Shown here in pieces: positions 25,793-30,510 of a stretch of 64,000 nucleotides of DNA (positions are counted from its first letter, which is position 1; every line of letters begins with the position of its first letter). This DNA is from a bacterium. GTDB lineage: Bacteria > Bacillota > Bacilli > Lactobacillales > Streptococcaceae. The stretch spans positions 62,001 to 126,000 of the forward strand of contig CAJNBT010000003.1 of NCBI GenBank assembly GCA_905221085.1, given 5' to 3'. The notes beneath the pieces were generated by a model, which did no database searches, was not told the origin of the DNA, and worked only from the letters and a program-made list of their open reading frames with translations. The position numbers were made by a program, and so were the translations under genes.

Positions 25793-26359
25793 TTAATTTA
25801 CATAGATAGCCAGTGTTTGATAGGGTTCGAGTAGAATTTTTTCAGACACTCCTGCATCTTCATAGTTTGAAAGCAAAATTTGTCCTTTTGGGTAGGCTAG
25901 AGGTAAGTCCATTTCCACTTCTGTGGCATAAAAATTATTGAGGACCAGTAACTTTTCATCCTCATACTGACGTTCAAAAGCGTAGACTTGATTGCTATCC
26001 TCAAAGGCTGGTTTGTAACTTCCTTCCGAGATGATAGGCACTTCTTTACGAAGTCGAATCAAGTCTTGGTAGAAGGTGAAAATCGGACCTTGGATTTCAT
26101 TTTCTACATTAATGTGAGCGTAGGATTTTCCTGCCTTGAGACAAAGAATATCTACTGTGAAACCAGCATTTTCCGAAGAATCCCACTGCATGGGAATTCG
26201 TGAATTATCACGCGACTTAGCCTGAATAATCTGGAAGGCTTCTTCCTGACTCTTCCCTTCTTCTAAGAGCATCTGATAAGCATTGAGCGATTCGACATCC
26301 ACATAATCAGGGTCAATCATCACGATTTTCTCACCCATATAAATATAAGGTGTCCCACG
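25793..26359 (-). pseudogene. Remnant of a GH13 glucosidase (DexS/TreC type), C-terminal part only
   Basis: Homology begins at RGTPYIYMGEKIVM, in the middle of the TIM barrel, and continues to the normal C-terminal beta domain (ending LLEPYQTLAIYVN). A GH13 enzyme for alpha-1,6-glucan or trehalose-6-phosphate needs about 350 residues upstream, including the catalytic Asp and Glu, and these are missing. Codons before the break (LRFAKSTNRNS) do not resemble the family and run into the terminator of the neighbouring ABC operon. Pneumococci have an intact glucosidase at this position beside a trehalose PTS (from memory). An ATG inside the remnant would give 181 residues with no function. Confidence 0.85.
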
Positions 26360-26431: not shown

Positions 26432-27235
26432 TTATCCCAAAACTAATTCATCACTAACTAGACTTTGGCAACTATTTTTCTGGAAAAGATGCATGAGATT
26501 TTCAACCGTCAGATGCTTTTTCTCCTCTCCCTTGACATCCACCACTATCTTGCCTTGATAGAGCATAATGAGACGATTTCCGTACTCAATCGCATGGTTC
26601 ATATCATGGGTAATCATCAAAGTCGTCAACTGATGGTGTTCCACAATCTTTTGCGTCAAGTCCATCACCATTTGACTGGTTTTTGGATCAAGTGCCGCAG
26701 TGTGTTCATCCAAAAGCAAGAGCTTAGGTTTCACCAGAGCTGCCATGACTAGGGTCAAGGCCTGTCTTTGTCCTCCTGAGAGGTATTGAGTATCCACTTT
26801 CAAGCGATTTTCAAGACCAATATTCAACTCCTTCAAGGCTTCTTGGAACTGGATTCTATCCTTCTCCTTCACGCCCCAACCAAGCCCTCTCTTCTGCCCA
26901 CGTCTCAAGGCAATAGCCATATTCTCCTCAATCGTCAAACGAGAAGCTGTTCCCATCTTAGGATCTTGAAAAACACGGGCGATATCCTTGGCTCTCTTTC
27001 TGACACTCAGATTTTTGATGGATTTCCCTGCCAATAAAAGGTCCCCTTCGTCTACCGATAGATTGCCAGCCAAGATATTCATCAAAGTGGATTTCCCTGC
27101 TCCATTTCCACCAATCACAGAGATAAAATCTCCCTCTTCAACTTCTAAATCTAATCCTTTGAGGACATGGTTCTCATTGACCGTCCCTGCTTCAAATGTC
27201 TTGTGAATATTTTCAAGTGTTAACAAACTTGCCAT
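26432..27235 (-). CDS. trpZ: Aromatic amino acid (TrpXYZ-type) ABC transporter ATP-binding protein
   Basis: A 267-residue ATPase with Walker A GGNGAGKST (about 42-50), signature YLSGGQRQAL, Walker B LLLLDEHTAALDPKT and ITHDMNHAIEYG as the switch. The companion permease and binding protein are those of the TrpXYZ family (PF04392-type binding protein), so it probably supplies energy for tryptophan or broader aromatic uptake. It is the last gene of the operon, followed by a terminator. Confidence 0.87.
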   Translation of the reverse strand: MASLLTLENIHKTFEAGTVNENHVLKGLDLEVEEGDFISVIGGNGAGKSTLMNILAGNLSVDEGDLLLAGKSIKNLSVRKRAKDIARVFQDPKMGTASRLTIEENMAIALRRGQKRGLGWGVKEKDRIQFQEALKELNIGLENRLKVDTQYLSGGQRQALTLVMAALVKPKLLLLDEHTAALDPKTSQMVMDLTQKIVEHHQLTTLMITHDMNHAIEYGNRLIMLYQGKIVVDVKGEEKKHLTVENLMHLFQKNSCQSLVSDELVLG

Positions 27236-27247
27236 AACTTTCTCCTC

Positions 27248-28141
27248 CTATTCATTTCTCAATTTCAGACCACGAATCTTTAATCTCTTTTGCAATTCTG
27301 GCGAAAATAAAACCAAGGCGAGCAAGATTGCATTAAAGAGACGAACTAGATTTTGATCTAGATTTGGAATTTCATAGATATTTAAAATAATCAAACGGTA
27401 TACAATAGCACCGATTCCGATGGATAACAAGCGGCCTCCAATGGTCAAGTCGTGTATCAAAACTTCCGCAATAATGACTGCACTCAAACCAACAACGATA
27501 GTTCCTGTCCCAGAAGTTACATCCGAAAATCCATCATTTTGAGCGAACAAGGAACCACATAGGGCAATCAAACCATTTGAAATCATGTAACCAACAATCT
27601 TCATGGTGTCTACATTGACCCCATTGGCCTCACTCATCGGAATATTGTCCCCAGTCGAACGCAAGACCAAGCCAATCTCTGTTTTCATCAAAAGAGTCAA
27701 GACCAAACAAACAAGTAAGAGACAGGTCAAACTGAATGAGAAAACAGCTTCTTCATTTGTCAGTCCCAGGCTAGCCAACTGTTTAAAGACAGTTGAAGAA
27801 TCTCCCAAGGAAAGATTGGGCACACTTCCCATGATTTTAATATTGATGGAATAGAGCCCTGTCAAGGTCACAATACCTGTCAAGAGAGCTGGAATTTTCA
27901 TCTTGGTGTGGAGCATTCCTGATACTAGACCTGCTACCATACCTGCCAGAAAAGCAAGTAAGATCGCAATCCAAGGATTTGTTCCTACCTGTATCTGAGA
28001 TACGACGACAGCCGCCCCCAGTGGAAAGGCTCCCTCAGCAGTCATATCCGCAATATCCAAAATACGGAAAGTCAAGTAGACCCCAATCGCCATAATCGAC
28101 CATAGCAAACCTTCTGATAAACTAGATAATACAAAATTCAT
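27248..28141 (-). CDS. trpY: Aromatic amino acid (TrpXYZ-type) ABC transporter permease
   Basis: A 297-residue permease of the LivH/branched-chain type (BPD_transp_2) with about eight to nine membrane spans. The EAA-like coupling region is GDNIPMSEANGVNVDTMKIVGYM. A single permease gene implies a homodimer. It lies 11 bases after trpX and 12 bases before trpZ, in one operon. Confidence 0.87.
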   Translation of the reverse strand: MNFVLSSLSEGLLWSIMAIGVYLTFRILDIADMTAEGAFPLGAAVVVSQIQVGTNPWIAILLAFLAGMVAGLVSGMLHTKMKIPALLTGIVTLTGLYSINIKIMGSVPNLSLGDSSTVFKQLASLGLTNEEAVFSFSLTCLLLVCLVLTLLMKTEIGLVLRSTGDNIPMSEANGVNVDTMKIVGYMISNGLIALCGSLFAQNDGFSDVTSGTGTIVVGLSAVIIAEVLIHDLTIGGRLLSIGIGAIVYRLIILNIYEIPNLDQNLVRLFNAILLALVLFSPELQKRLKIRGLKLRNE

Positions 28142-28152
28142 CTTAAACCTCC

Positions 28153-29130
28153 TTATTCCTTGCCTTCTAACTTACTAATATCAATTCCCAATGCATCTGC
28201 CATTTCTTGATTGGTGTGCAATTCCAGTTTTTCAGGCAACTCAACTGCTATATTTTCTGGCTTCTCACCTTTTAAAACACAAACCAGCATGCGAGCTGTT
28301 TGACGTCCCAATTCTTCATAATTGGTACCGTAGTTATACAAGCCACCAACCGCAACCATTTCTGTTGAACCACCAAATACTGGAACCTTGTGTTTAATAG
28401 AAACCTGCTTGACTGTTTCCATGGTTGACGAAATGATATTATCCGTTGGTACAAAAACCATATCCACCTCTGCCATCAAGCTTTCTGCAGCAGCCTTGAC
28501 GTTGTTACTGTCCAAGATTGTTTTTTCAACAACGGTAAAGCCTTTTTCTTCCAGAAGGCGCTTAGCTTCATCTTTTTGGACAACTGAGTTTGGCTCGCTC
28601 TGAGTATAAAGAATTCCAATTGTTTTAGCTTTTGGCAGGACTTTCTTTATCAAATTGATTTGAGTTGAAATAGCATCTGATGACTGATCGCTTGTCCCAG
28701 TTACATTGCCCCCAGGATACTCTCTTGACTCAACTAACTTGGCACTGACAGGATCTGTTACCGCTGAAAAGATAACAGGTGTCGTTTGTGTTGTATTGGC
28801 CAAGCTCTGAGCAGAAGGCGTTGCGATAGCTAGAACGACATCACTAGATTCTGCTAGTTGCTGGGAAATGGTTTTTAGATTTCTTTGTTCTCCCTGGGCA
28901 TTTTGCAAATCAATCTCGATATTTTTCCCTTCAACATAGCCTTGCTTGGCCAGCTCATCCACAAAACCTTCTCTAGTAGCATCTAAAGACTGGTGGGTAA
29001 TAAACTGCGAAATACCGATACGAAACACATCTTTTTTCTTATCCGCCTTCAACTGATGCAAACTGATCAGAGAGGTCAAGAGGATCCCCACTACCAAGAG
29101 GGGTGCTAGTAATTTTCGAACAACTTTCAT
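28153..29130 (-). CDS. trpX: Aromatic amino acid (TrpX-type) substrate-binding protein
   Basis: A 325-residue ABC binding protein of the ABC_sub_bind family (FRIGISQFITHQSLDATREGFVDEL, VIFSAVTDPVSAKLVE, GTSDQSSD, VPVFGGSTEMVAVGGLYNYG). Family members bind tryptophan. The N-terminal hydrophobic stretch (about 7-23) has no lipobox Cys, so it is held by an uncleaved or non-lipid signal anchor rather than by lipidation. It is the first gene after an attenuator-like leader whose leader peptide is rich in Phe and Tyr, suggesting a wider aromatic substrate range. Confidence 0.87.
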   Translation of the reverse strand: MKVVRKLLAPLLVVGILLTSLISLHQLKADKKKDVFRIGISQFITHQSLDATREGFVDELAKQGYVEGKNIEIDLQNAQGEQRNLKTISQQLAESSDVVLAIATPSAQSLANTTQTTPVIFSAVTDPVSAKLVESREYPGGNVTGTSDQSSDAISTQINLIKKVLPKAKTIGILYTQSEPNSVVQKDEAKRLLEEKGFTVVEKTILDSNNVKAAAESLMAEVDMVFVPTDNIISSTMETVKQVSIKHKVPVFGGSTEMVAVGGLYNYGTNYEELGRQTARMLVCVLKGEKPENIAVELPEKLELHTNQEMADALGIDISKLEGKE

Positions 29131-29160
29131 AATGAAACTCCTTCTCAGAAAAGATAAAAC

Positions 29161-29188
29161 AAAAAAACGCCTAGATACTATCTAAACG
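29161..29188 (-). terminator. Leader (attenuator) terminator of trpXYZ
   Basis: On the minus strand CGTTTAGAT, loop AGT, ATCTAGGCG with two G-T pairs, then seven T residues, ending about 30 bases before the trpX start. Its 5' arm can instead pair with 29227-29238 (12 bp), so it is conditional. Confidence 0.85.
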
Positions 29189-29225
29189 GATGCTTGAAAT
29201 AATCTAACAAGTTATAACTTTGCTA

Positions 29226-29253
29226 GTCCATTTAGATATTCATCTATATGGAC
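29226..29253 (-). promoter_or_regulatory. Anti-antiterminator hairpin in the trpXYZ leader
   Basis: GTCCATATAGAT, loop GAAT, ATCTAAATGGAC. The 3' arm is the same segment that can pair with the terminator arm (antiterminator), and the 5' arm can pair with the upstream segment 29272-29281 over 10 bp. Confidence 0.75.
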
Positions 29254-29332
29254 CACAATCAAAAACCTTAGCCACATAGATACAAACAAATTGCTTGAAC
29301 TGTTTGCATCCATGGTGACATGTCTACAAACA

Positions 29333-29392
29333 CTATCTAAAGTAGCTAAAGTAAAAGTTTTGATTCATAATTACAGCTTGTTTCTTATTCAT
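29333..29392 (-). CDS. Candidate attenuator leader peptide, Phe/Tyr rich
   Basis: A 19-codon open frame, MNKKQAVIMNQNFYFSYFR then TAG, starting about 26 bases after the predicted transcription start and about 260 bases before trpX. Five of its last seven residues are aromatic: Phe, Tyr, Phe, then Tyr, Phe after one Ser. The ribosome site is weak (purine-rich AGAAAAAGAA). The end of the frame (TTTAGATAG, including the stop) is complementary to leader segments that decide termination. Ribosome stalling here during aromatic amino acid shortage is the expected signal. I know of no description of this peptide. Confidence 0.65.
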   Translation of the reverse strand: MNKKQAVIMNQNFYFSYFR

Positions 29393-29424
29393 TTCTTTTT
29401 CTGCTTTCTTTTTTGATGTTTCCT

Positions 29425-29453
29425 ATCTTAACACCTTTTTCATTAGCTGTCAA
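29425..29453 (-). promoter_or_regulatory. trpXYZ promoter
   Basis: TTGACA, 17 bases, TAAGAT on the minus strand. It predicts a leader transcript of about 290 bases before trpX. The 29131-29583 interval therefore holds this leader, the promoter and the ami terminator. Confidence 0.85.
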
Positions 29454-29537
29454 GAATATTTCAGAATTTTTTAAAATTTTTCGAAAATTCTTTCAGGACG
29501 CTTTCAAAGACTTTCAAAACGATCCCAACAAAAAAAG

Positions 29538-29579
29538 GTTTATAATTTCCATAAAAGTTGACATGGAAATTATAAAACC
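29538..29579 (-). terminator. amiF terminator
   Basis: Near-perfect 16-base inverted repeat (arms GGTTTATAATTTCCAT and ATGGAAATTATAAAACC) directly after the amiF stop, followed by TTTTTTTG on the minus strand. Confidence 0.88.
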
Positions 29580-29583
29580 ATTA

Positions 29584-30510
29584 TTAGTTTAACCCTTGTT
29601 GGTAACGCGCCAATTCGGCTTGGTTAGCCCAAACATAGTGACCTGGACGGATTTCAACCATGGATGGTTTATCAGTCTCATAGTCGTGTTGACTTGGGTC
29701 GTAAACCTTCAAGACCTTCTTACGTTCCAAGATTGGATCTGGAATCGGTACCGCTGAAAGCAAGGCCTGAGTATATGGGTGAATTGGATTGTTAAACAAT
29801 TCTTCTGTTTCTGCAACCTCTACAATAACGCCCTTGTAAATAACTGCGATACGATCTGAAATAAAGCGAACGACCGACAAGTCATGGGCGATAAAGAGAT
29901 AGGTCAAGCCAAGTTCTTTTTGGAACTTTTTGAGCAAGTTCAAGACTTGGGCACGCACAGAAACGTCCAAGGCTGAAATAGGCTCATCCGCAATAACAAA
30001 GTCTGGTTGCATGACCAAGGCACGAGCGATACCGATACGTTGACGTTGACCACCTGAGAATTCATGAGGGTAACGAGTCAAGTGCTCAGCAAGAAGCCCC
30101 ACTTCACGAATAATATTTTGAACTTTCTCTTTACGTTCTTCTTCATCTTTGAACAGATGATGATTGTAAAGACCTTCAGAAATAATATAATCAACAGTGG
30201 CACGTTCATTCAAACTTGCCGCAGGGTCTTGGAAAATCATCTGGATTCGACGAATCAATTCCGCAGCTTGTTCACGCGATTTCTTACCATTAATCTTTTG
30301 ACCTTCAAAAATGATATCTCCATTACTTGTATCATTAAGACCAATAATGGCACGACCAATAGTTGTTTTCCCACTACCTGACTCACCTACAAGCGAGAAA
30401 GTTTCTCCCTTGTTGATAAAGAAGTTAGCATTTTTTACCGCAACAAACTTCTTACTTCCTTCACCGAAGGAAATTTCTAAATTTTTGATTTCTACTAATT
30501 TTTCAGACAT
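29584..30510 (-). CDS. amiF: Oligopeptide ABC transporter ATP-binding protein AmiF
   Basis: A 308-residue OppF-type ATPase. Walker A is GESGSGKTT, the signature is FSGGQRQRI, Walker B is [14 protein letters not shown], and the C-terminal OppF extension ([16 protein letters not shown]) is present. An in-frame start 23 codons upstream lies in amiE and lacks a ribosome site; the ATG at 30510 has AGGAGG. It ends the ami operon, pairing with AmiE to power uptake of oligopeptides, which also affects competence signalling in pneumococci. Confidence 0.96.

Follow-up and report, generated by a model that had tools for sequence, protein, structure and literature searches.

The window, the 64,000-nt stretch of DNA analysed here, carries on its minus strand the genes of an ABC transporter and, upstream of them, a leader with a predicted promoter and a short reading frame (Table 1). 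Just downstream of the transporter, a 181-aa frame (25793-26338, minus strand) looks by eye like the C-terminal part of an alpha-glucosidase. An earlier interpretation made from the letters of this DNA without database searches, hereafter the sequence-only reading, had called the transporter TrpXYZ-type. The homology bears this out, but the binding protein scores 329.9 bits, below the 390-bit cut-off of the NCBI TrpX equivalog NF041285, and in such species the transporter for Trp is probably a 39%-identical paralogue, which lies 150-255 bases downstream of a T-box match in all five of the streptococcal genomes tested. According to the accessible part of its experimental study, trpX of S. suis also lies behind a T-box (PMC9382623). 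No T-box (RF00230) was found in the window at gathering score, or in 29000-29600 at E up to 1. We infer that the window transporter takes Phe and/or Tyr.

The consensus promoter and the 19-codon frame ending NFYFSYFR to which the sequence-only reading had drawn attention are both present in front of the transporter. A similar promoter is visible in relatives by eye, and the Shine-Dalgarno sequence of the window leader looks weak (AAAGAAATG, by eye). The six RNA segments proposed in that reading (A, B', B, C, D and E) and their five pairings were also recovered, with ends within about a base. In the window, A:B' consists of 6 bp (TAGATA with TATCTA) and B':B of 10 bp, B:C is paired at 11 of 12 positions, C:D has 12 bp with one G-U, and the terminator D:E has 8 bp with two G-U, followed by the T7 tract. 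Segment A, which had been placed at 29341-29333, is kept, but that interval is only the shorter half of it, as a 10-bp helix between CTTTAGCTAC and GTGGCTAAGG, which extends A:B', had been overlooked. Two more elements absent from the sequence-only reading are a post-stop hairpin, formed by segments 1 and 2 directly 3' of the stop codon, and its competitor, which pairs 29310-29301 with 29288-29279 and reaches about 15 bp when folded. We name the eight segments A, 1, 2, 3, B, C, D and E, the former B' sitting in segment 3. When the leader was shuffled with its dinucleotides preserved, none of 100 shuffles matched the window on any of seven measures (D:E, the five other helices and the switch described below).

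Table 1. Positions of the transporter genes and leader features in the window
Feature	Position	Strand	Basis or pairing
TrpX-like substrate-binding protein (Pfam ABC_sub_bind)	28153..29130	-	Pfam
Permease (Pfam BPD_transp_2)	27248..28141	-	Pfam
ATP-binding protein (Pfam ABC_tran)	26432..27235	-	Pfam
Predicted promoter, TTGACA, 17-bp spacer, TAAGAT	29453-29448, 29430-29425 (span 29425..29453)	-	sequence
Leader peptide frame MNKKQAVIMNQNFYFSYFR*, 19 codons, control codons FYFSYF	29333..29392	-	sequence, codon conservation in 151 leaders
Segment A, first half, CTTTAGCTAC, inside Phe-Ser-Tyr codons	29342..29351	-	pairs with 29275-29266
Segment A, second half, TAGATA, Arg-stop codons (A of the earlier A:B')	29334..29339	-	pairs with 29282-29277
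Segment 1, 5' arm of post-stop hairpin	29319..29332	-	pairing (with 29314-29301), covariation
Segment 2, 3' arm of post-stop hairpin, alternative partner segment 3	29301..29314	-	pairing, covariation, fold
Segment 3, includes B', partners A, 2 or B	29265..29289	-	swap test, fold
Segment B	29242..29253	-	pairing, swap test
Segment C	29226..29238	-	pairing, swap test
Segment D	29179..29190	-	pairing, swap test
Segment E and T7 tract, terminator D:E	29161..29176	-	sequence, pairing, fold

Related leaders and conservation of their helices

Relatives of the binding protein were found in 244 of the 247 Streptococcus genomes searched, many of them being distant paralogues. The leader set was assembled from the regions upstream of 40 such relatives together with further and named loci, and a first covariance model was made from 18 leaders and supplied with the terminator fold only. 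At E up to 0.01, this model found the element in 137/247 Streptococcus genomes and in 238/395 Lactobacillales genomes (60 of 80 genera), counts that contain a few false hits, since the weak hits inspected near E 0.002 (L321 and L322) had no leader and were rejected. At E up to 0.001, the first model was positive in 27 of 299 genomes of a class-wide sample, and five of these lie outside Lactobacillales. With a second model, for which 43 diverse leaders were used, the element was found at the same E limit in 181/295 Lactobacillales genomes and 55 of 74 genera. Some genomes hold up to six matches. Among the matches listed, the leaders of 20 streptococcal and 40 other loci, 40 copies from multi-copy genomes, 15 more and some further loci were read. 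Two loci have two attenuator copies, each ahead of its own binding-protein gene (L190, 1701-1892 and 3391-3592; L194, 301-501 and 3189-3381). Several mitis-group loci, including L001, L003 and L005, have about 105 or 150 additional bases between the terminator and the start of the binding-protein gene, which the window is without and which may be a small mobile repeat.

Conservation of the helices was examined with a partner-swap test, in which the duplex energy of a segment pair within a leader is compared with that of partners exchanged between leaders (2000 permutations). The test used 91 leaders less than 85% identical, window included, taken from 103 sense hits (115 rows minus 12 opposite-strand hits). 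In each of the seven helices, the true partners pair more strongly than exchanged ones, with z values of -15.5 for A:3, -17.5 for 1:2, -7.6 for 2:3, -16.1 for B:C, -15.2 for C:D, -30.4 for D:E and -4.9 for 3:B, the weakest of the seven. Seven control pairings outside the model showed no own-partner advantage in the same 91 leaders (z -1.8 to 0.4), evidence that the advantage is not a product of kinship alone. Column counts in an alignment agree for the first half of A, 1:2, B:C and D:E, all used in fitting that alignment, and also for two helices that played no part in the fit, C:D and, through double changes, 2:3. For 3:B the relatives shift register and the column count gave no support (82.2% paired against a shuffle mean of 81.8%), which is why the register-free swap test was done. 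The second half of A is nearly invariant and is conserved without covariation of its own (97.6 against 97.3 in shuffles). The covariation that the sequence-only reading had expected of its helices extends to all seven by the swap test, while 3:B and the second half of A show nothing beyond shuffles by columns. Where the codons in helix A differ, the pairing strand compensates, as in AGC-TAC with GTGGCT in the window and AGT-TTC with GAAGCT in L126.

Control codons and downstream genes

Codons were tabulated for 151 leaders in the standard frame. Five of 156 rows were dropped, four of them (L195, L196 and two of L289) because the frame of the aromatic leader ends or runs differently and one (L303) because it was judged doubtful; the latter was also excluded from the folds of relatives described below. 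A downstream gene in the same orientation could be named for 149 of the 151 leaders, the label being the best match to scanned representatives; of the acetolactate synthases, for example, L261 was scanned and L263 was named by its near-identical start. Aromatic codons, whose conservation the sequence-only reading had anticipated, stand ahead of all 121 of the aromatic or TrpX-type genes, which comprise 98 TrpX-type binding proteins, 14 shikimate dehydrogenases, 3 DAHP synthases, 2 chorismate synthases, 2 aminotransferases (whose aromatic role is assumed), 1 dehydroquinate synthase and 1 prephenate dehydratase. Ile, Leu or Val codons stand ahead of 16/16 branched-chain genes, all from one family of Lactobacillales (8 binding proteins, 3 threonine ammonia-lyases, 3 branched-chain aminotransferases and 2 acetolactate synthases). 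The other 14 leaders are all aromatic and precede 7 polar amino-acid binding proteins, 3 transporters of unassigned substrate, 1 transketolase and 1 D-lactate-dehydrogenase-like gene, with 2 lacking an identified gene. The match between codons and genes has a Fisher p of 3.4e-21, which is overstated, the leaders being related. As the first model was made from aromatic leaders, other codon types are under-sampled, yet this cannot create the codon-gene match. Although none of the helices drawn for the window includes codon position -7, it is Phe or Tyr in 122 of the 135 aromatic leaders (TAT 56, TTT 43, TAC 12 and TTC 11, with TTA in 1).

Signals for translation of the leader are widespread in the same set: an in-frame ATG occurs in 150/151 leaders, and a Shine-Dalgarno-like 4-mer precedes one in 138/151. 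The stop codon is absent from its standard place in 16/151 leaders, so a state with the ribosome at the stop codon (state 3 below) is not universal.

In L202, L210, L216, L219, L223, L227, L229 and L233, the control block is not directly followed by a stop, and the reading frame extends into segment 1 (e.g. ...SYFRYCL). The L293 leader has an additional Trp codon ahead of an aminotransferase, and L308 (G702), outside Lactobacillales, has the leader YYYFGWFS with a Trp codon ahead of a transketolase gene. Leaders ending YFSYFR in L294, L296 and L299 are followed by a CitMHS/Na-sulphate-symporter-like transporter (L294 scanned). In L185 (1701-1910), no transporter follows the leader; in its place is a 157-aa frame which, by eye, is similar to an IS200-type transposase.

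Predicted switch and proposed mechanism

For folding, the window RNA was taken from 29425 through D, and all sequence up to 10 bases past the A-site codon was removed. In these folds, C:D reaches 11-12 bp only when the A site is at codons -7 to -3, namely F Y F S Y, in agreement with the earlier proposal that a stall on the Phe or Tyr codons blocks the terminator. For codons -14 to -8, C:D does not exceed 4.3 bp; with the A site on the last Phe it falls to 1.5 bp, on the stop codon to 0.1 bp, and without a ribosome to 0. With the A site further upstream, A:3 (2:3 at the edge) and B:C prevail, and from the last Phe on, 2:3 and B:C prevail. A footprint of 8 or 12 bases shifts the edges by about one codon. 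With an RNA that stopped after C, B:C prevailed in every fold of the window; the switch shows only once D is included.

Among 98 relatives, mean C:D pairing is maximal at -8 to -3, near the control-codon block (-7 to -2). C:D exceeds B:C in 61, 68 and 62 of 102 relatives with the stall at -7, -5 and -3, respectively, and also in 20/102 without a ribosome and 40/102 with the ribosome at the stop codon. When E is included, the equilibrium fold regains the terminator in most relatives despite the stall (C:D above B:C in 13/102); the choice must therefore be kinetic, made after D and before E is transcribed. In these models, the window has a clear predicted switch; among the relatives it is seen in only some, and the contrast is moderate.

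An attenuator is recognised by a short leader frame in which codons for the controlled amino acid are frequent, by an intrinsic terminator ahead of the first gene and by an exclusive antiterminator set by ribosome position. The first is found across the 151 leaders with their codon-gene match, the second in the 8-bp D:E helix with its T7 tract and its z of -30.4, and the third in the fold of the window and, by a strict two-sided switch test, in 27 of 98 relatives. Codon conservation, the segments with their covariation, the codon-gene match and the predicted window switch, all computed here, thus support the Phe/Tyr-coded ribosome-mediated attenuator first proposed from the letters of the DNA. 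With a probability of about 0.88, the leader is a cis-acting ribosome-mediated transcription attenuator whose 19-codon frame would sense the supply of Phe and Tyr as charged tRNA and control an aromatic amino-acid ABC transporter.

Three states are proposed. Without a ribosome (state 1), A would pair with 3 and enclose the nested 1:2 hairpin, followed by B:C and the terminator D:E, and transcription would stop. With a ribosome stalled on F-Y-F-S-Y (state 2), A would be covered and segment 1 free, so that 1:2 would keep segment 2 occupied; segment 3 would then pair with B and C with D, blocking the terminator and turning the transporter on. With a ribosome at the stop codon and the peptide complete (state 3), A and 1 would both be covered, 2:3, B:C and D:E would form, and transcription would again stop. 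In the folds, B:C is predicted both without a ribosome and at the stop codon, which leaves the terminator free to form. The sequence-only reading was incomplete, as the device proposed here has eight segments and three states.

The position at which the antiterminator is predicted also bears on other ways of setting the RNA. In a nascent-peptide arrest like that of TnaC, FYFSYFR itself would stall the ribosome upon free aromatic amino acid, and this stall rather than codon starvation would set the RNA. The C-terminal residues beside the stop codon, Ser and Arg included, are indeed strongly conserved, but the Ser and Arg codons sit in helix A, where pairing can account for their conservation, and F and Y interchange freely at -7 and -3. 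Moreover, the same scaffold bears IIISIIIR, LLLLSLIIR and similar endings ahead of branched-chain genes, and the stall for which the antiterminator is predicted falls on the F/Y codons and not on the stop codon, making peptide arrest very unlikely. A general sensor of translation stress or antibiotics, as in msrD or vmlR, would have any slow ribosome relieve termination, and in the model a stall at -7 to -3 of any cause does give the antiterminator. Most of the controlled genes, however, serve amino-acid transport or synthesis and have matching codons, and we consider such a sensor highly improbable.

For the attenuator family as a whole, it is probable that one homologous RNA across Lactobacillales and a few other Bacilli serves as a codon-programmable cassette ahead of at least ten kinds of gene. 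Its sensor would have switched codons between Phe/Tyr and Ile/Leu, the pairing strand changing to match, and its three-state fold would read whether the ribosome is absent, stalled or finished.

Relation to known RNA families and attenuators

The Rfam family RF02863 ('Enterococcus sRNA 2410') matches the window over its full length at 58.1 bits (E 7e-9 in 601 bases) against a gathering score of 61, and its drawn structure includes A:3 and 1:2 as in the window. By this match, the window leader is a diverged relative of RF02863 and not a listed member. The cut-off was exceeded by six of 21 loci scanned (L200, L212, L207, L269, L236 and L305); the others scored under it or gave no reported RF02863 match, as with L235, L270, L293 and L297. 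Judged by these matches, RF02863 is the same element as part of the attenuator family; it is filed as an sRNA, whereas we read the window element as an attenuator with a leader peptide. From its name and length, RF02863 presumably derives from PMC5593968, whose accessible part describes an E. faecium RNA of that name as 195 nt long with two transcripts on Northern blots and makes no mention there of a leader peptide or attenuation for it. Both the Rfam type ('Gene; sRNA') and these two transcripts would suit a trans-acting small RNA with its own targets. A terminated leader is also a short RNA, however, and the two transcripts are consistent with terminated leader transcripts. Given further that 149/151 leaders have a nameable downstream gene in the same orientation, with matching codons wherever the amino acid of the gene is known, a trans-acting role is the least probable of the explanations considered.

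The sequence-only reading had taken a chain of more than four segments to be undescribed, but the alternating logic of such a longer chain is already known from the his attenuator of Salmonella. That attenuator also has a C:D hairpin. In the accessible part of PMC4046918, it has segments A-F, in which A-B pairing with the terminator E:F is set against B:C and D:E, and termination occurs by default when the leader is untranslated, as A pairs with B. The two systems are alike, as far as that text goes, in that ribosome position switches an alternating chain, here between A:3, B:C and D:E on one side and 3:B and C:D on the other. The family described here differs in its eight segments, its post-stop hairpin with a competitor, its mixed Phe/Tyr codons, its occurrence in Lactobacillales and its use of one scaffold ahead of many operons; the likeness is functional and no homology is claimed.

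Other systems can be likened to the family by description only. Branched-chain-rich leaders with a terminator are reported for Listeria and S. aureus and suggested for L. lactis and Streptococcus in the accessible portion of PMC6123439, and these Gram-positive attenuators share a coded leader and a terminator with the present family. The uORFC-13-1 motif likewise has a Phe-coding leader and a terminator ahead of an aromatic gene, aroF, and is given in the part of PMC8632094 at hand as confined to Acholeplasma and environmental DNA. The T-box of S. suis trpX also attenuates transcription of a TrpX-type transporter but, in the available text of PMC9382623, senses tRNA directly and has no leader peptide.

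Neither a description of the family as an attenuator nor the letters FYFSYFR were found in the open-licence papers searched, and the widespread, codon-swappable, three-state attenuator looks new. Amino-acid control in Firmicutes is usually described in terms of T-boxes and protein regulators, and for aromatic regulation in these bacteria Panina et al. 2003 reportedly dealt with a DNA-level signal and T-boxes, not with this RNA. If the attenuator reading is true, ribosome-read attenuators of one family are also in use in a large order, that of the lactic acid bacteria, and part of this family has been listed as a small RNA without explanation. Under that reading, nature would itself have put the attenuation model to the test wherever control codons changed together with the target gene, and for transporters lacking annotation the substrate could be predicted from the codons of the leader. 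A further Rfam family, RF04312 (trpB motif), gives overlapping matches over L217, L200, L269, L207, L279 and L303 at 30-43 bits against a cut-off of 59, and may be a distant relative.
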